Assembly: GCA_950295325.1 (NCBI GenBank)
Contig: OX485803.1
Location: 50,669,554-50,733,553, forward strand
DNA from: Polytrichum commune
Taxonomy: Eukaryota; Streptophyta; Polytrichopsida; Polytrichales; Polytrichaceae
DNA: 64,000 bases
Direction of reading: 5' to 3'
Below, piece by piece: positions 5,755-59,026 of this stretch (position 1 is its first letter; each line of letters begins with the position of its first letter). The translations under genes and the position numbers were made by a program. The notes under the pieces are model-generated. The model was not told the DNA's origin, did no database searches, and worked only from the letters and a program-made list of their open reading frames with translations.

Positions 5755-7108
5755 ATGGCTGGTAGGGCTCGCAAATTTGGAAGCTCTGTTTCCACATCGC
5801 GGAGAATTTTGTTTGGGTTTAGTCGAAGGCCATGGGACCATCATCAGCAGGCTTGGAGTTTGCATTCGTGTCTCTTTCCTGGATTCCAATCGAATTCATC
5901 AGCACGTCATTCATCGTGGTTGCACCATCCTCCACAGGTAAATGGCTATACTTTCCGGAATGTGTTGCAAAGCCTTTCCTATAGAGCTTGACGTGTAGTT
6001 CAGGAATGTTCTTTGTCCGCTTTGCTACCTTCAAACCCTCTTTGCGAAGCATCAGGAAGGGCAAGAGTGCTCTCTACAAGGAATGTATCTTTTCTGGATT
6101 CCAATTTATCTCAGCATGTCATGCATCGTGGTTGCATCCTCCACAAGTAAATGACCATTTTTTTCTAGAATGTATTACTTTGCCTATCCCACAGAGCTCG
6201 ACATGTAATTCAGACATGTTATTGTCTTCTTTGGTAGCTTTAAATCCTTTTTGTGAATCATCGGGAAGGGCAAGACTGTTCTTTACAAGGAATATAACTT
6301 TTCTGGATTACAATCGATCTCATGAGCATGTCATTCGTTGTGGTTGCATCCTCCACAGGTGAATAGCCGTATTTTTCAAGAATGTGTTGCATTGCCTATG
6401 GCTCGGAGCTTGACATGTAGTTCAGGCATGTTATTTTCCACTTTGCTACCTTCAAACCCTCCTCGTGAAGCATCAGGAAAGGGGAGAGTGTTCTTTACAA
6501 GGAATGAAGGCACAGCGAGAGGAGCACTGGTTGAGGATGAAGGATGGAGCTCATCTTCAGAGAGCGAGGATGAAGTGGAACAGTACGATGTTAATGTGGA
6601 GAGAAGAACGAGCGATGACAATCACATCACAGCAAGGCCACATCTGATGGCCCCCATCCGAGACTTGATAGCGGATGCAGTGAAACGAGGGTATGCGAAA
6701 TACAACTCTTTGGGTCTGGCAAGGGCAACTGCAAACCCTAGGTTTGTCTCGGCGAAAGATAGCTCCATAGTAAATCATTATTCTGCGGTCATCAATGTCA
6801 TCGTGAAGTACTACTCCTTTGTGAACAAGAGATCGTCTCTTTGGAAGGTCACTTCCATTTATCGGAAGTCGTGTGCACTCACGTTAGCCAGGAAGCACAG
6901 TTTGCGGTCCTCCAAAGCCGCATTCAACAAGTATGGCCCTAATTTGAAAATCTCTGAGCCTGACCGGGAGCCTGTGATATTGTATTATCCTGACTCTTTA
7001 AAGACTACTGGAAAGTTCAATACAATGTCTGCTCGGTATAGTGAGGTGACCATCCTCCAGGAGCCTTTCGATAAGCGAGCTCGCAGGGTGGCTGGATTTA
7101 AGTCATAA
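5755..7108 (+). CDS. Nuclear-encoded group II intron maturase, domain X only (mitochondrial type)
   Basis: The C-terminal 200 codons, about 6,510-7,108, resemble the domain X (maturase/thumb) of plant mitochondrial intron-encoded maturases. Recognisable blocks are 'HLMAPIRDL', 'VNHYSAVINVIVKYYSFV', 'YRKSCALTLARKHSLRSS' and 'SLKTTGKFN'. The reverse-transcriptase domains and an endonuclease are absent. Domain X binds intron RNA and aids splicing. A start at 5,755 (tgccATGGCT) gives a basic, Ser/Arg-rich N-terminus suited to organelle import. A donor follows at 5,937/5,938. An acidic linker (SSSSESEDE) precedes domain X. Bases 5,881-6,507 are three tandem copies of a ~210 bp unit, and the exon junction is uncertain. 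A splice from 5,937 to 6,359 keeps frame, and an internal ATG lies at 6,398. I cannot tell an expressed gene from a recent pseudogene, but the last 250 codons are intact. Confidence 0.6.
5881..6507 (+). repeat. Three tandem ~210-bp copies inside the maturase gene
   Basis: Units begin at about 5,881, 6,096 and 6,305, giving periods of 215 and 209. Each contains 'ggatt(c/a)caat', a 'cctccaca(g/a)gt(a/g)aat' donor-like site, 'acatgta(g/a)ttcag' as an acceptor-like site, and 'ccttcaaaccctc' followed by 'ttacaaggaa'. Small indels put the copies in different frames. The unit spans the end of exon 1, a short intron-like piece and the start of the following exon. Confidence 0.85.
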
Positions 7109-48412: not shown

Positions 48413-50254
48413 TAACAGGTTGGAGGTTTGAAACTGGTCCTTCATTTTGCTTCATCTCTAAGAGTATAATTGGTATAATTTTCCTTTTATGACTTCAACA
48501 TAACATATTGTTGTTGAATACCTCCATGTCATATGTGAACCTTGAAGATGGCAAGAACGTTCCTGATGCCTGTAACAGAAGTTGCAACCAGTGACATGCC
48601 TGAGTTATCCAAGCTGCAGTAGAAGCTACTTTTGCAATTGAGATGCGGAAACTATAAGATTTTATTTGACAACAATTATGGAAAATCTTAGCTGAAGGAA
48701 GGAGATAAGTTAAAATTGGGTTAAAATACTCAAAGAAGTAAGAAGAGACCTTGTGACACATAGTGTTGTTGTTAGCAAATCTTACTTCTCTTTGTTAGTA
48801 TTCCAGTACATAATTATGCCGAGATTAATTTTGCATGAACTATCCATCTAGTAACTTGTTTGGTCTTTAACAAGTTATAAATATTTGCTCTGTGACAAGG
48901 ACCTTCTGGAACACAGTAGCAGTAGTCTCCAAGCCAAAGTGAAACTGATGGTCTTCAAACGAGGTTGTTGTATTGTTCAGAATTTAGCTCTTTTAAATGA
49001 CTTGCCTCTGTAATCATGTTGTATGTTTGTATGTTGTATGTAATCATGTTGTATGTATATCAAAAGTCCAAAACTTGCAAGGTACATCCGCAGCTTTCTC
49101 CAGTACGACTAGTAGGCTGCTGAGTACAATTCTTTTCATCTGGAACGATGACAAATGTCAAATGCACTTCTGAATGCCACTGTTTGACTTACCTATCATC
49201 ATGGTGCCAATTTTCATATGTTTCTCATTTATTGGGGTCAACTCACACGGTACAAACATCCAACCAGGTGGTGTGTGCTGGAGTAATTCAAATGCCAAAT
49301 ACTCTGTTGAATAGACTTATGTCAGTATTACCACTTCCAAAAGAACTCTGTTGTTGTACAGTGATCAGACTCCATCATGTTGAAGCACGTCTGTGCTAAA
49401 AGAAATATATATGTCTTCAAGAAAGTCCACACTAATTCTAAGATGAATTTTAGATATTGATCCAGCTGAACATGAAGTTTAGTGTTATATTTGTGTCGAA
49501 GATAACAAACTAACTGGATTTTACAAAAGAAACTTGTCATGAGTCTTACTTGTAGGTCACATTACTGAATCTGCTACTGTTGATCACAAGGAGTGATATT
49601 GACATGGAAGATCGACAAAACATGTTGGTTGTTGAGAGGACTACTATGATGTGAAGATGATAACCTTTACACAAAGGCAAACAATCGAGTACATTTGGGG
49701 CAAAGTCCAGAATATATAATTGTTTATAGAATCTAATACAGAATGATCGGATATGCCATTGTGACATAGCAACATAGAAATGGAACTTAAGGTTTCCTGC
49801 TAGACCCAGTTGGATGCAACAGCTAGAGGATATTCTGCACAAGCTGCGAAGGGGGTCATCATCTTGCACACAAAATTACCCATTCAAGGACTTGTCTAAC
49901 CTAAACAAGCTCAAATTCTATCAACTCTAATCCTTTTTTACAACCTACAGAGACTTCAAGTCAACATTGTACATATGTGCATATACTTTACCTTCATTTG
50001 TAGTACTGTGCAACTGGATAAAGGAGTAGAGCACACAAAGTGACGCAGAAGTTTTGGGTCGCTGGGACATTCAATCTATAACAAATTTAAAAGTACCATT
50101 CCAAGGCAGCACTCTCTGATCATCCATAAATTTCCATCACTTGTGGTGAATGCTTTTATTGGATTGTTGACCGGAGGAATCATCAGCACTACATGGCTTG
50201 CAGATAAAATATACTAGTTTTGCTTGTTTAGTATTTTCCTTAATCATACACCTG
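48413..50254. other. Gene-free stretch
   Basis: It includes the 3' flank of the phosphoesterase gene. A short duplicated 'gtaatcatgttgtatgt' pair lies at 49,011-49,056. No coding signal recognised. Confidence 0.4.
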
Positions 50255-50600
50255 TAGTATTTGAGTGGTGTGTGGTTAGGCGTGGATCTAAGAATGGGCA
50301 CAAAAACAACATCATGTGCTTATAAAAGATTGGACTATGTGCTAAAAAACTGTTAATTATTCTAGGTTTGATAGTCAACATAATTGGGGAATCTAAATGA
50401 TCATGTAATGAGCTCAAGAATCTTCACTTTGATAATGAATAAGATATTCATATGAGCTCCAAAAATAATAAGAAAATGGTACGGACATGATTTAGAATTC
50501 ACAATCATCTTGAATCAATTGCGTGTCCGGCATCGCACAAGAAGTGGGTGCAGAGCTAAAAGCGTCTATTCAAAGCCCGCCTATCGTAGGAGGAGTACTT
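50255..50600 (+). mobile_element. Family F element, intergenic
   Basis: It contains 'tatttgagtggtgtgtggtt', 'agattggactatgtgctaaa' and 'gtcaacataattggggaatc'. The last string is the uninterrupted counterpart of the site where another copy (55,500) carries a nested insertion. Confidence 0.85.
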
Positions 50601-51666
50601 GATCACAGGAAGCTGCCTCACATCAAATCATATTGCACCTAGCCAAATTGCAGGCAGGAATTGGTCGTGAGTGATCTTGACAGAGAGAGCTGCAGTGTGG
50701 ACACTAGCTACTGGTGGGCTCATCGTTGATCATGCCACGCACGTCTTCACGTAGTACTTGTGATAACATCAACGAAGTTACATCACTTGTTCTTTCATGT
50801 ATTGAAGCAGTCGTCGAATCTCATGACTTTATAGCGCAGTGGTACTATTATACTCCGGGTGGCAATCCTGATCATTTTAAGATCAGGGCTTAATTCTAGG
50901 GTTTAGGGTTTAAGGTTTGGACCTATACTCGTTATAAATCACTTCTTCTGCATCTAATGAATTGGTTTGGTTTGGTTTGGTTACACACGCCGGAGGAGCA
51001 ACATGATGCTGTGGAAGAGAGAAGGCACTGAGAGGTATCCCATTGATAGATTCCTTTTGTGTCTGAATTAGAACAACTGGTCTCACTACTGGAATCCAGT
51101 GGAGCTAATGTCATATTCGTTTTTCAGCTTTGTGACATTCTTAGTTTCCACTGAGAGAAATTGTCATATTTGTGACATTATTGTGTGTTCATAAGTTGAT
51201 ATAAACGCAGTCAAAACGCATTAGTGTTTATACTTTCAGATCTACTTAATTAGCATATATGAGAAGACTAGGGGTCACCATCCAGACACCTTAGGTACAT
51301 ATTTATAAATGCTCAAAGGAATTTATAGTCTCTATAAATGCTTAGAGGCGATACCTAGTGTATGTGGTTAAAAAAAAGTGTCTTACCAGCTCCAAACCAG
51401 GTTGTAAAGAAGGGTGCTACAGTGGCACTATATATACATGGGTACTCGACATGACATTTGCAGACGAAGAAGTATTGATGCGAAGACATGTCGATCAAAA
51501 GTACTACTTCATGAGCTGCAACAATTTAGTATGCTTGAAATTTACATATATTTGTAAAAGAAGTTTGAAGTTTGGGCAAAAACCTTGGCTGAGGGAGATG
51601 GCAGCAGCTTGCCATAAACTCCTCAACATGAGTTGGAATGAGTGGCATCATCGATTTTGTGTGAGG
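50601..51666. other. Upstream region of the lipase gene
   Basis: No gene recognised. The frame upstream of 51,667 stays open on the plus strand from 51,358 but shows no family similarity before about codon 140, so I treat it as leader or promoter. A telomere-like 'tagggtttagggttta' pair occurs at 50,896. Confidence 0.4.
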
Positions 51667-52032
51667 ATGAGAAGTAGGAGGATCATCACGTTGAGTAGTA
51701 CTTTAGTCATGTACCCGATCATCTCGATGGTGCTGTGGGATTGTAGAATGGGCATAACTTCTGTCGAGGCCAGTCATGCTGCTGCTGATGAATTTGGAGT
51801 GATCCAAAGAGCAGGCAGTAGTAGAAGATTTCTCTCTGCAAGCAGTTACAGTGCTGGACTTTGTAAAAGCATAATCCAAGTGGCCGGCTATCCATGCGAG
51901 GAAATCAAGGTAACCGCAATATGCTTGATGACTACTTTCCATACAGACAATTATAATTGGACAGACGTAGTACCACCCTTATAAATTACATCAGACGACT
52001 TAATATATAGTTCATGTGTGATGCTCAAAAAA

Positions 52033-52052
52033 TGATGATGATGATGATGATG
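52033..52052. repeat. (ATG)n microsatellite
   Basis: About six ATG/GAT units just before the acceptor of the second lipase exon. Confidence 0.85.
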
Positions 52053-52269
52053 TTTGTGCAGGTAGAAACATTTGATGGGTTCTTACTGGGGATGCAACAC
52101 ATTGCGTATGGATCTACACATGCAACCAATTCAACAGCACCTCGACCCCCTGTGTTCCTTCAACATGGCCTAATCCAGGTGCGTAGAGACTCCATCTCTG
52201 TTAATAGCTACATTATTTGGATTTACATTTCTGGATGATATATACCTGTAAATGATGATTATCAGTAGT

Positions 52270-52510
52270 AATCGTAGCGGTGTTCGGGGGGACCTTGGTC
52301 AGAATCGATTGGTTGAGATCCAAGTGTCTCCAAGTCCAACCGGTTACATGTTGATATCTTTCGGTTTTCTTTTGTGAATTGAAGGTATATTCCATTGATT
52401 CTTTTGCAATGATCGGCGATTTGCCAAAAAGTCCTGAACTTGAACCAGTTATCTCTCAAACTCAAACAGCCCATTTGTAACTAGCGGTGGGATCCGCCCA
52501 ATTCGTAGAG
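52270..52510 (+). repeat. CCGGTT-rich dispersed repeat, copy 3, lipase intron
   Basis: It aligns with 26,200-26,430 ('tccaaccggttacatgttga', 'atgatcggcgatttg', 'catttgtaacta'). Confidence 0.65.
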
Positions 52511-53394
52511 TTGTAGAGCAACTAATTCTGCCACATGCTCGACATATATGCGTGTGGGTTTTTTGTTGGAACTTGTGGGATGTGATGTTAACATTCTTAA
52601 GTAGCTTAAGGTCAACACACCTAACACTGACAGAATAAGCGCTGACCATAGTTTCTATTTATCTAAATTTCTGAAAATATATGTATTCTTGTTTGCAAGA
52701 TCAAGAGGACCCAAACAACACATTGTTTGGATATTATATGCAAAGTTGTAATGGTTAACGTTGCATTCGTAGGCGACCTAAAATCAACATGTAGATATCA
52801 GATGTTCAAGGGGTGTATATCCTCGTATCAATATGTACCTATTGTGTAAAATTCGAGGTGTTGGTTTTGGATATACATATTTTATTCAACTTCCAATGCA
52901 AATGAAATAATATTTTAGGTAATCCCGATATCCGACGAATGATTCTATCCAGGACGCACTTCTTCAAGTGACTCTTGGTAGATGGAACATATCTTAAAGA
53001 CATGCAAGGAGGATTTAGAGCTAACATAGGATCTTGTAAAACATGATTAAATTCTGCAAGTCTAATGTGCAACAGGGAAAAAGTAAAAAGTAAAAACATA
53101 AAATAAGGTTAAATCACAATGTCAAATGCCCTTGTAAGGTTCTATCACTATATTTGTTAATTAGAGACTTTGGAAAGTCTCAAAATAAATGCAAATAATT
53201 TAATATCTAGTTCAATTTCTTATTATGATGACATGTATTTGTGCCAAATTGGTTAGTGCCGCCCATGCAAATCACTTTATTAAGTCACATTGAATATATT
53301 TTTGTGTTTTTCTTGTTCTTTATTTGAAAAACTACGTCCTTCAATAATCTCAAAATCATGAAAAAGTCTCCGATTACTGAATATAATGATACAT

Positions 53395-53690
53395 GTGTTT
53401 AGAAGAGATTGGACTACGCGCTCAACATTTCGTAACCATTCTAAGCTTAATAGTGAATATAATTGGCAGGGGATCCATATGATGATTTACTAATGCAAAG
53501 GGAACTTCACTTTGAGAATGAATAAGATACTCAAATGAGTTCCAAAATCACAGAGAAAATGGGTACGGGTGCGATTTGAGATTGCTAATCATCTTGCACT
53601 AATTGTGTGTTTCAAACCCTCTGAGAGGTGGGTGCATAAGTAAATTCGATGTCCATTTAAGTCCCACTTACCTTACCACAAAATTATGTA
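53395..53690 (+). mobile_element. Family F element beside the inverted lipase exon
   Basis: It contains 'agagattggactacgcgctc', 'gtgaatataattggcagggg', 'gagaatgaataagat' and 'cttgcactaattgtgtgttt'. Its right end is about 35 bp from the donor side of the inverted exon. Confidence 0.8.
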
Positions 53691-53724
53691 GTAGGAAGTG
53701 AAGAGCAGGTTAATGGGTATGTAC

Positions 53725-53865
53725 CCAATTAGAGGATGAGAGAGATGTGTGGCCATGACTCCAACGGGTGCATCGCATATTGCCAATCCAGACATCAAAA
53801 CCTTGATCCGCTAGCATGTATGCAAGTGATTGATCCAGAGGGTTCAGTACCCAGTCGTCTCCCCC
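53725..53865 (-). pseudogene. Inverted lipase exon
   Basis: On the minus strand a 141-bp (47-codon) open exon is bounded by an acceptor (GGTAATGCAG) and a donor (GTACAT). It encodes GGDDWVLNPLDQSLAYMLAD then 'QGFDVWIGNMRCTRWSHGHT', the block that follows 'LQHGLIQ' in plant acid lipases. Phase 0 at both ends matches the preceding plus-strand exon at 52,178. No stop or frameshift is present. The next exon of the family (FWDWSWDEL to GHSQ) is absent downstream on this strand. It is either an inversion within the surrounding lipase gene or a fragment of another lipase gene. Confidence 0.85.
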
Positions 53866-55499
53866 CTGCATTACCATGATCATCTTATCACAACATTCAT
53901 AGCATTATTCAGTTGCTATTGGCCATTCCAATGTTTAATGAAAATGCAGCACCCAAGTTTATCAAACTGAATCTTAAATGGCAGTGTTGGTAAAAAAATA
54001 ACCAAATAACCATGGTATAGTTTCTGATAGTATCGCACTTATTCCCAGCCCCACCCACTCTCTATACTCAGCTAGATAATGTTATTTTTTCATTTTTATT
54101 TTCCATTGCCGAAAAACATACTAAGACTATTGAGTGCACATGGTGGAATCATATTACCCCAAGAGTGAGACTCCTAAGTATGATTCACTAAACAATATTA
54201 ACTCTCAAACATGTGTGACTACATTCTCTTTCCATACTAGCTTTGAAAATAAAATTTCAAGATTCAAGGTCTATGAGCACTTGCATGGAATGCCAAGCAT
54301 AATCAAAGTGGCAAGCTCTCATTAGTTGACACCTAATTGTTGATGCCTATCTTTGGGCATAAATTCCATGGATTCTTTCATTTGAGATTGTGAGGGAGGA
54401 CATAGTAAGAATTAAGCTAAAATCAAACTCAAGTAATATAATGTTTGAAGATGGAACTCGATAATGAAACACGAAGTTGGTATTACAATAGATTGTTACA
54501 AAAAGCCCAATAGAATTTATTGATTTTGCCATTTCTGGATCAAACAGGGAACAATCATGGCCCTGGCAGCGATGTCAGTGGCTGAAACCAAAATGTCGGA
54601 CATCGTGAAAGCGTTTGTTCTCTTGGCCCCAATTGCATACATGGAACATATTCAGTCGCCATTTCTGACTGTTTGTGCTGACATCATGCTCGATGTGGTA
54701 ATTAACCCATTCTTACATCATGTTGAAATCCTATTATAGAAAACTTTCTGGTCAGGTATACTTGTGTGCTTGATCTGAAGCTGGCGTATTCATTGATGCA
54801 TGGTAAAATCAATGATCTCAATTTAGCCATGTGCAGATTACATTGCCATGTCTAATATTTGTTAATTATAGCAGACTTCAAAATTTAGATGCTATCCCTC
54901 TTAGTGGTTGAACTGGTTTAATTTGTCACAGATTGTTGGGTGGTTCGGTACAAGAGAATTCACCCTATACAAGTGCGTTCCCCCTCATTGCCTTGTGAAT
55001 CTGATCAATTCAAAGCTACTTTTGTAACTACAATGTCTTCAAATTTAGTGCAGAGCAACAAACTTGTAAATTATTCTGCCACTGAGGATGCAACTCATCA
55101 CATATTTGCAAAGGGTGGTGTATTTATGTGTTTGTTATAACTCTTAAAATTTTATGTAGTGATCTATGACGTAATTACCTAACAAATATCTTTGAAGAAA
55201 ATAAGAAAACTGTGTAATTATTATGACTTGTCTAAGGAGTTTATGATGTTATTTTGACATTTTATTGTTTGTACATGATAAATTTTCCTCCGGAAATTTT
55301 TATTAAACAACTCAAATAATCCACAAATTTGGTGATTGCACAACCAGTGAGGTGGGCGCAAAGCTTCTGGAGAGGGCATGCGGAGACCCAAACGTGGTTT
55401 GTGAGAGTCTGATAGATGCAGCTGCAGGTAATAAGAAATTATCCTTCACAGGAATTTGAGCTGCTTGCATCCTAAGATAGACATGCATACTTCCTTATA

Positions 55500-56345
55500 A
55501 TTTGGACACCTATATTTGAGTGGTGGATCTTAAGAGCGGACACCAAAATTACATGTGTTTAAAGGGCATTGGACTACGTGCTTAAAATATACTAACTATT
55601 ATGGACTCAATAGTCAACATAATTGCCCAGGGAGTGCACTGTTCAAGTACTGTATTTATACACGTGGGTGCACAAAAGGGGTATTATTTAAAACAAGCAT
55701 GTACAAAATGTACGTACAAGAGACATATTGCTATTAAGCAAGAAGTAGATATACATGAGGCTATAGAAAAATATATGTAAAGTACGCATTTACGCATTTA
55801 CGCGTTCAAGTCAGACCTGGACCAAGAATCATGTGTTTTTTCATCCACTAAGTAACGATTTTATAACTAAAAATCCATGATTTGATATTATACATATAAT
55901 AGGGCCATATTTTTGCATTTCCAAACATTTGTACACATGTTATATACAATTTCTGTATTTTTTTTGGACCCTTGTGTACGTATGGAAATGTATTTTGAAG
56001 CAATGAGATTTGTAAGTATATTGCTTGATTTTAGCAAAAATAAAATGTATACAGGGGTATTTTAATAAGGGGCATGCACGCACGTGATGCTTGGTTTTAA
56101 TGAATAGTGCACTCCCTGAGCATAATTGGGGAGACCTGTTTGACCACTTTTAATGAGCATGAGAATCGTCGCTTTGAAAATGAATAAGATGTTCATCTCT
56201 GCTCCAAAAATTATTAGGAAAATGACTATGGGCACAATTTGGATGTGCTAATCATCTCGCATGAATTGCATGTTTCATATCTTACTAGAAGTGGGTCGAA
56301 AAAGGAGAGTGTCCAAATTAGGCACATCTACATTAATTCAAAACT
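55500..56345 (+). mobile_element. Family F element split by a nested insertion
   Basis: The left half, 55,500-55,625, has 'cacctatatttgagtggtgg' and 'gactcaatagtcaacataat'. The right half, 56,121-56,345, has 'gagcatgagaatcgtcgctt' and 'catctcgcatgaattgcatg'. Joined, they match the uninterrupted copy at 50,255-50,600. Confidence 0.85.
55626..56120. mobile_element. Nested hAT-like MITE with 8-bp target-site duplication
   Basis: The 495-bp insertion has ends CCCAGGGAGTGCACTGTTCA and TGAATAGTGCACTCCCTGAG, which are inverted repeats with two mismatches in 20. It is flanked by the direct repeat CATAATTG (55,618-55,625 and 56,121-56,128). An 8-bp duplication with CAGGG-type ends fits the hAT superfamily. 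No transposase is encoded. Confidence 0.9.
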
Positions 56346-57550
56346 GATTAAATTCTTCCAAACCAGTCTCACCTGCATTGGTTGCATTCGATTAACATTT
56401 CAATCTCACGGGCATCAACATTTGATCTGCAGGAAATAATTGCTGTTTCAATAAATCCCGAGTCTATTATTACCTACAGTGGGAGCCGCAATCCACGTCC
56501 ACCAAGAATTTGGCACATCTTGCACAAAGTAAGAATTTGATGAGACTCTATGTCCTTACTGTACCCATAATGGAAGAGAACAGCTGGATCTTGGCAATTA
56601 ATCTAATAATCTCACCGGGGTCTCACCTTTCTTCACATGCAAAGTTGACATGCAGATCACCTTCGGAGTTGATGGACCCAGGGGTGATGAGCCAAGAGTT
56701 CAGGGTTTGGTGTAGTGATTTAGCCGGGGATTTAGGGTTTAGGGTTTAATGCATTGTCCAAAGGCATTCGAATCCACAACTTCCAGGGGTTCACTCCTGC
56801 ACACTCCTATTAAATGTCTCAAAGCAAATATATAAAATATCTATCATTTTTTAGGGTACCTGTTGGAAACTCATTTTTGAAAACACGATGCTATATTTGT
56901 AGAAAGTCCTTCAAACACATAGAATATTCTATGAATATATGCATTACTTCGTAGCCTCTGAAAATGCCCGTTTATTTTAGGTGCCCACTCACATTAAAAG
57001 GGAGTGACCCCCAGGCCAGAACTACATGTGAATAGTAGATGATTATATGGCTTTGTGCAGCTTAGAAGCATCTAGTGTGTTATTCTCTGGTAACAATCAC
57101 GTCATTGACAACCATAACAGAGGCTATAGATTACTTCTTTCTAGCACATGATTGAGATTTTTTGTTGTTGCATATTGATCATACATCCAAACAGCTAACT
57201 TTCGGATTGTCCTGATGATCATTACAGTGATACGAACGGGCAAATTTTCAAGGTACGACTATGGCTTGGCTGGAAACCTCGCAAACTACAGACAACTGAC
57301 CCCTCCAGCATATGCACTCGCCAACATCCCTGCATCAACAAGAGTGCTACTAATTTCCGGAGGACATGACGTCTTTGCAGATTCGAAGGACGTGGCAAGG
57401 CTGGTGGAGGAAATGCCATGTCCAGTGCAAACCCTCAACCTTCCGAACTATGGCCATGCCGATTTTGTGATTGGCACAAGAGCCAACGTGGACGTCTACA
57501 TGCCCATCATTGCATACCTCCAATCTCTCATGCAATCGACAAATCCCTAG

Positions 57551-58985
57551 TCGATTGACCTGATTGAGAAGGTTTCACTTTCCAATGCCTTATGTTGTCC
57601 ATTGAAGTGTTAAATTGGCAAATCCATGGCCTTGTCTTTGTTTATGGAGTCTCCACCTTCTTATTTAAGTCACTTTGTGAGCAAGGTGCACACAGGTCAT
57701 GTTATGCCTCCACGTGGTTTATATTTTTTAGGTGATCATTTAACATTATATGCAAGCTTCGTGTAACAATGCACGCTTAATTTTGGGTGTCCACAATAGG
57801 TCACAAACTGAAATAATTGCACCTATGTTAGCATTTTTTAGTAACTTGTGAATAGTTTCCATCTTTGATTCCACATTATGCCCAGAAGTCCAAACGGCTA
57901 TCAGACTTGCTGATGATTAATTCCATAATGTGACTAGTTGTGGGGTATTGTTAGATTACTTGTCAGCTCCAGTTGGGTAATTCAAGGATATTTGACTATA
58001 TGATCACCTACTTTTCTTCAAATTCAAAAATTAATAGGAAGCATTGATGAGAAATCGATTGTTGAATTTTTGATTTGCTATATAGAAAAGATGAACCGTG
58101 TGAACTTTGAAGCATATAAAGCTACAGTTGTGTCGATGATGAGGGATATGTCGATGTGGAGTTGAGGAATCATGAGAGCAGGCATGTGGGTTGCATGTAA
58201 CATTGAACATAGCTTCATTCTAGGGTTGTAACCATTTGTTAGTGGTCAGTAATTCACTACATGCCCATATGGGCAATCATAACTTAATACATCAAGGACT
58301 GCACTTGTTGAAGGAAAGCATCTTGCATAATCCAATGACTTTATTCTCAGCAAAAGCTCTGGAATCTATATCCCAAGTAAATGTGGTAGCGTGCGGGTCT
58401 CCAAAGTCCTAACAAAGGGCTCAATGGTGGCTACATGTATACAAGTAAATCTTAGTAGTTATTTATTACCGGTGACCAATATGAGAAATGCTCTTGGAAT
58501 GTTTCTTTCTAAAAGGCATATGTCAATGATTGTAACTTTTAAGTTGTGTGCTAATGTTTATTGGCTCGTTAGGAGCCATTTTTCACCTAGAGTCCAACCT
58601 ACTGAAAGACATGCCAAAGAGGGGATGTGGTATACAAGGGCAATAAACCATGTGATCTGAAATCTAGTCTTACATTTTTTGCTCCAAACAATTTAAAATT
58701 CAGCCATAAACTCCATAAAAGGTTAATATATAGATTTAGCCTTTCTTGCAAGATGATAGATGTCTTCAAGGTTTTGGGATTGCAGGGTTGGATATTGGCA
58801 TCTTTACGATGGATACTCCTCACATTAGCTAATTCAATAATGTATGACACTAAAAAGGAAAAAAATTGGAAAGCCCCATGATCTTCATACTCTTAAACCG
58901 ATAGAATGTAGGTGCAGGTCATGTATGTGGAATGGATTGGAATTTGGGACTCACATATATGCGACAATTTGAAAAAAGAAGAAGT

Positions 58986-59026
<41 letters not shown>

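Follow-up and report, generated by a model that had tools for sequence, protein, structure and literature searches.

A 64,000-nucleotide stretch of the genome of the moss Polytrichum commune (contig OX485803.1, positions 50,669,554 to 50,733,553; hereafter the window, in which positions are given below) contains, at 51598-57550, eight of the nine exons of an acid lipase gene. Seven of these lie on the plus strand and exon 3 lies on the minus strand, whereas exon 4 is found on neither. We consider it very probable that this arrangement reflects a real inversion of about 1.38 kb together with the loss of exon 4 by deletion, whether as one event or as two. One breakpoint of the inversion was found within a split copy of a dispersed repeat, which the original prediction for this locus had not reported.

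Exon content of the lipase gene

Joined in order, the eight exons give a product of 419 residues with no stops and with all phases fitting, and an AG acceptor and a GT donor are present at each internal exon boundary (Table 1). Neither stops nor frameshifts nor splice lesions were seen in any of the eight exons. It had been claimed that the seven plus-strand exons are intact and mostly join in phase, that the minus-strand exon retains both splice sites and a matching phase, and that the remaining exons carry no stop or frameshift. All of this was borne out, and the fit of the phases extends to all eight exons, with exon 3 agreeing with its neighbours. The start codon given is a tentative choice: the ATG at 51598 lies in a frame open from 51346, with further ATGs on either side. 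The seven plus-strand exons alone likewise join in frame, to 372 residues. The joined product contains the partial alpha/beta-hydrolase lipase region PF04083, which scores 67.7 bits in Pfam against a cut-off of 27.

The homologue set used throughout consists of the best 120 of 216 matches to the joined product, a similar length being needed for a match. Among the homologues listed, P0001 is the closest (60% identity across 81% of the query) and none exceeds 60% identity; P0002, from the moss Ceratodon purpureus, is 58% identical across 74% of the query. By exon, identity to P0001 is 74% in exon 3, 57-82% in exons 2 and 5-9, and 29% in exon 1. The minus-strand exon 3 matches P0001 with a tblastn E-value of 1.3e-18, so this match is not due to chance, and the order of exons on a single strand is broken at the locus.

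The three listed relatives with a solved structure are two gastric lipases and one lysosomal acid lipase. In two structure alignments, seven residues of the query (183-189) stand opposite about 45 chain residues, and it is here that the joined product lacks a block. Exon 9 contains GGHDVFAD and YGHADF, the Asp and His of which we take to be catalytic, and the equivalent residues of P0001 (D369 and H398) are invariant in 30 aligned homologues. The G-H-S-Q-G motif, whose Ser is presumably the nucleophile, as in gastric lipase, was not found, its exon being absent at the locus and, for this gene, from the assembly searches. The window gene thus shares exon content and motifs outside exon 4 with plant gastric/lysosomal-type acid lipases (PF04083; for example P0002 of Ceratodon purpureus), but differs from them in lacking the nucleophile exon and in the inversion of exon 3.

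A dispersed repeat at the inversion breakpoint

Two adjoining stretches of locus L015 (4322-4475 and 4482-4570) match the window at 54203-54363 on the plus strand and at 52987-52897 on the minus strand. When L015:4300-4610 was compared with the genome, at least 42 matches including itself were obtained, 40 of 922 candidates having been scored. Forty of the 42 matches listed are uncut, running from position 34 or earlier to position 293 or later of the 311-base query and so across the site at which the window is cut. Because these matches run full-length, the element is a dispersed repeat of about 290 bp. We read the ends of its consensus, CATAGCATTCTTAAG and CTTAAGAATGTTATG, as nearly inverted copies of one another, the pattern of miniature inverted-repeat transposable elements; target-site duplications were not discernible by eye among 13 copies.

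A profile of the repeat built from the 13 copies (nhmmer) finds only pieces of it in the window, namely model positions 48-206, 212-315 and 314-334 (Table 1). Flipping 52988-54363 rejoins the repeat, which then scores 191.3 bits as opposed to 108.7 and 72.1 bits for its separate parts, and also returns exon 3 to the plus strand between exons 2 and 5. By comparison, random flips of this stretch gave 115 bits or less in 199 of 200 cases and 157.8 in the remaining one. The L015 copy aligns with the re-joined order in one BLAST alignment of 141 bits across the junction, its halves giving 108 and 50 bits. Apart from the two pieces described here, the repeat occurs among the window, 20 flanking loci and the lipase loci L005 and L006 only as full copies in L015 and L006; it is therefore unlikely that the two complementary pieces, separated by 1.2 kb, are unrelated.

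The junction itself has lost sequence. The consensus reads GCCTTC at the cut, with at least five of these six columns filled in 13/13 aligned copies, and this hexamer is missing in the window. The inverted 6-bp words ATGGAA (52982-52987) and TTCCAT (54364-54369) stand at the two ends of the inverted segment and may be microhomology used in the event or may be chance. Recombination between inverted copies of an element was considered as the source of the inversion and rejected, the window having one copy of the repeat, itself cut, and the inverted repeats reported in 50000-59000 being 20-27 nt long. The arrangement found, one repeat cut and its parts flanking or ending the inverted piece, is that expected of end joining with one break in a mobile element or repeat.

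Table 1. Coordinates of the lipase exons, repeat pieces and genome matches to exon 4
Feature	Position	Strand	Remarks
Exon 1	51598..51909	+	N-terminal region to ...GYPCEEIK, start codon chosen; tblastn with P0001/P0003
Exon 2	52062..52178	+	VETFDGFLL...FLQHGLIQ, PF04083 region
Right terminal piece of split repeat, model 314-334	52588..52608	-	nhmmer E 0.033, weak alone; collinear with adjoining piece
Right part of split repeat, model 212-315	52883..52987	-	nhmmer 72.0 bits; ends at left breakpoint
Inverted segment, ~1,376 bp	52988..54363	-	flip rejoins repeat (scores in text)
Second, different dispersed repeat	53390..53675		within inverted segment; would be in intron 3 in the old order
Exon 3, inverted	53725..53865	-	GGDDWVLN...SSSNW; AG acceptor and GT donor intact; tblastn
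Left part of split repeat, model 48-206	54201..54364	+	nhmmer 108.7 bits; ends at right breakpoint
Exon 5	54548..54697	+	GTIMALAAMS...IMLDV; tblastn
Exon 6	54932..54972	+	IVGWFGTREFTLY; tblastn E 0.15 when alone
Exon 7	55348..55427	+	NEVGAKLL...DAA; tblastn
Exon 8	56433..56528	+	GNNCCFNKS...NLAHLAQ; tblastn
Exon 9 with stop	57228..57550	+	MIRTGKF...QSTNP; presumed triad Asp (GGHDVFAD) and His (YGHADF)
Genome exon 4 matches	C2:51.09 Mb (L005), C1:64.40 Mb (L006), C5:46.36 Mb, C2:58.05 Mb		other lipase loci

Other repeats are present in and around the gene. The right end of the split repeat is interrupted by a 274-bp stretch (52609-52882) that is probably an insertion and may have a TA overlap at the edge. 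The intron between exons 7 and 8 holds a dispersed repeat (55523-55633 and 56121-56349) interrupted by a stretch of about 490 bp, the 22-nt ends of which (55624-55645 and 56101-56122) are 91% complementary. Elsewhere in the window, a tandem array at 5874-6505 consists of three copies of a 212-bp unit.

The missing fourth exon

Of the 120 listed homologues, 119 have a block of 33-35 residues at the point where the window product passes from exon 3 to exon 5. In P0001, exon 4 encodes 37 residues (163-199, RFWDWS...YVGHSQ); the true exon is three residues longer than the aligned block, the aligner having matched the W that ends exon 3 to the one in FWD. Searches for exon 4 covered the window, 20 flanking loci of 10 kb (about 99 kb on each side) and the assembly of 408 Mb in 64 contigs. 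A profile built from the 119 homologues scored 71.5 bits at L005 and 61.7 bits at L006, paralogue loci that serve as positive controls. Exon 4 was not found on either strand of the window (at most 8.2 bits) or of the 20 flanking loci (at most 10.8 bits), the weak exon-4-like scores there being taken as chance.

When a 48-residue piece of P0001 over exon 4 was compared with the whole genome, four matches of 32-48% identity were obtained, none of them at this locus. The original prediction had placed the exon carrying FWDWSWDEL...GHSQ on neither strand and had proposed a search for the missing block in the whole assembly. The profile and tblastn searches of the window and flanks agree with the first point, and the four matches obtained by the proposed search are all at other lipase loci. 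Full-length P0001 has 19 matches in the genome, six of them falling on exons of this locus (five on the plus strand, one on the minus strand) and the other 13 elsewhere, with 29-57% identity, and PF04083 has four matches in the whole genome. As in a unitary pseudogene, no intact copy of this lipase gene was found elsewhere in the genome, where matches reach only those 29-57%. So, at the sensitivity of the searches used, this gene's exon 4 appears to be absent from the assembly, and unflipping the segment would therefore give no intact gene. A move of exon 4 to a nearby or distant site was considered and rejected on the profile search of the flanks and the genome searches.

The paralogue L006 has the normal order: exons 3, 4 and 5 match separately along a single strand, and exon 4, 111 bp long, is bounded by AG and GT. 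The serine motif of L006 (C1:64.39 Mb) is GYSQ, not GHSQ, and the intron between its exons 4 and 5 contains a full copy of the ~290-bp repeat (L006 3337-3629). Two more distant lipase-like loci at C2:58047856-58050296 and C5:46359695-46362112 contain exon-4-like blocks with 31-45% identity to P0001.

Probable history and consequences of the rearrangement

The old order would have been exon 2, intron 2 with the uncut repeat, exon 3, intron 3 with the second repeat (53390-53675 reversed), exon 4 and exon 5. One break would have fallen within the repeat, at that time in intron 2, and the other between exons 3 and 5; the 1.38-kb piece would then have been rejoined backwards via end joining, 6 bp of the repeat being lost. 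The simplest course would be that this event also removed exon 4 (111 bp plus intron) at the far junction: with the first repeat broken and exon 4 cut out by a break on each side, the present order would be reached in one step. It is possible, although in our view the less likely course, that exon 4 was instead deleted independently, before or after the inversion. The far junction has nothing that links the deletion to the inversion, and a simple inversion between ATGGAA and TTCCAT would account for the flip alone, but two lesions would then be needed in one short interval of an otherwise undamaged gene.

In a locus this rich in repeats, an assembler could have flipped the segment and dropped exon 4. 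We regard such an error as quite unlikely: the inverted repeats of the region are far under long-read length, the rejoined repeat is without 6 bp that 13/13 aligned copies have, so that the flip is not a clean mirror, and unflipping leaves the gene incomplete, its exon 4 being nowhere else in the assembly. The original prediction had also named a separate functional lipase gene as a possible source of the minus-strand exon, and its opposite strand and the repeats nearby would suit either such a gene or a captured gene fragment. This explanation has almost no probability left, since no further minus-strand lipase exon was found in the window or its ~99-kb flanks (tblastn with the 120 homologues, E 1e-3), the phases of the exon fit exons 2 and 5, its identity to P0001 is in line with that of exons 2 and 5-9, and the flip that rejoins the repeat also places it correctly.

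The original prediction had offered either recent damage or a locus still used in some other form, for example an allele polymorphism; two lines of evidence support recent damage, namely the lesion-free exons and the sequence of exon 9. Assuming neutrality since the event and indel rates of 0.15-0.05 per substitution (three rates), the 95% bound on neutral divergence is 1.3-2.3% for the eight exons and 1.5-2.7% for the seven plus-strand exons. The exon 9 relatives P0202 and P0203 are 93% identical to the window. Over the 106 residues of exon 9, no change is specific to the window, five are specific to P0202 (one of doubtful direction, the outgroups sharing the residue of P0202), and eight separate P0203 from the other two. 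Exon by exon, no sign of decay was seen in exon 3 beyond Gly175Cys. Taken on sequence, these data fit a young event, and continued selection would fit them too.

Several observations weigh against a real, recent inversion with deletion. The split repeat marks one breakpoint, and the second is without a repeat to prove it. The BLAST alignment of the L006 repeat copy is not extended across the cut in the re-joined order and scores 90.6 bits either way, the repeat profile covering this copy in full (model 33-330). Exon 3 alone gives a weak bound on neutral divergence, 9-15%, and intact exons limit the age only of a gene that is now evolving neutrally. Among 83 columns with 90% conservation or more, the lipase deviates at six, one of them being the change of Gly175 to Cys in exon 3, and 16 of the 120 listed homologues deviate at six or more; to judge from these residues, it looks constrained, not decayed.

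The consequence for the protein can be gauged from the structure model of P0001 (mean predicted local distance difference test score 86.4, 30 sequences). In this model, exons 3 and 4 correspond to residues 116-162 and 163-199 and together supply strands 139-143 and 192-197, helix 169-188 and Ser198. The only splice open to the locus would pass from exon 2 directly to exon 5, which keeps the frame and gives the protein of 372 residues. Such a product would be without two strands of the core sheet, a helix and the nucleophile serine, and therefore no lipase activity is expected from the locus, which should be a null allele or a young pseudogene. That the skipped, serine-less protein is nevertheless useful, which would account for the lack of decay, is very unlikely. 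The in-frame join of exons 2 and 5, the lesion-free plus-strand exons and the lack of window-specific changes in exon 9 are all compatible with it, but the two core strands, the core helix and the nucleophile would be gone, and recency accounts for the same facts. Nor did any of the 120 listed homologues exceed 60% identity, a comparison in which similar length was needed and in which RNA of this plant may be outside the database. A more elaborate version, to which we give even less weight, is that living populations segregate for the inversion-deletion allele and that selection keeps a stable serine-less exon 2-5 protein, for example as a non-catalytic lipid binder.

No paper on this lipase locus was found among the literature matches listed. 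Passages of a study of Triticum urartu (PMC5144955) describe an HLH gene in which exon 3 was inverted with its introns. As in the moss lipase, one internal exon and its introns are inverted in one lineage in a transposon-rich setting; unlike in the moss, the first two exons of the HLH gene have moved away too and a translocation junction is nearby, and those passages describe no repeat cut by the exon inversion. Among human-chimpanzee inversions not arising from element pairs, 63 of 203 have an L1 or Alu element across only one breakpoint, and microhomology has been proposed, according to passages of PMC2603318; some inversions mediated by element pairs are there said to invert exons or to have lost part of the inverted sequence. 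The elements in those cases are L1 and Alu retrotransposons, whereas that in the moss lipase is a dispersed repeat that is short and carries short inverted ends.

Events of this kind are thus already known. Gene finders could join the seven plus-strand exons, or split the locus, and so report a lipase that should not work. The old order was inferred from the cut repeat within one genome alone, and small inversions in any single assembly could likewise be revealed, without a sister genome, by repeat copies whose pieces face apart. In the moss this is probably an ordinary gene death caught early, in a new, well-resolved and cleanly readable instance: a plant gene disrupted by an inversion of less than 2 kb together with a deletion, with no point lesion seen so far.

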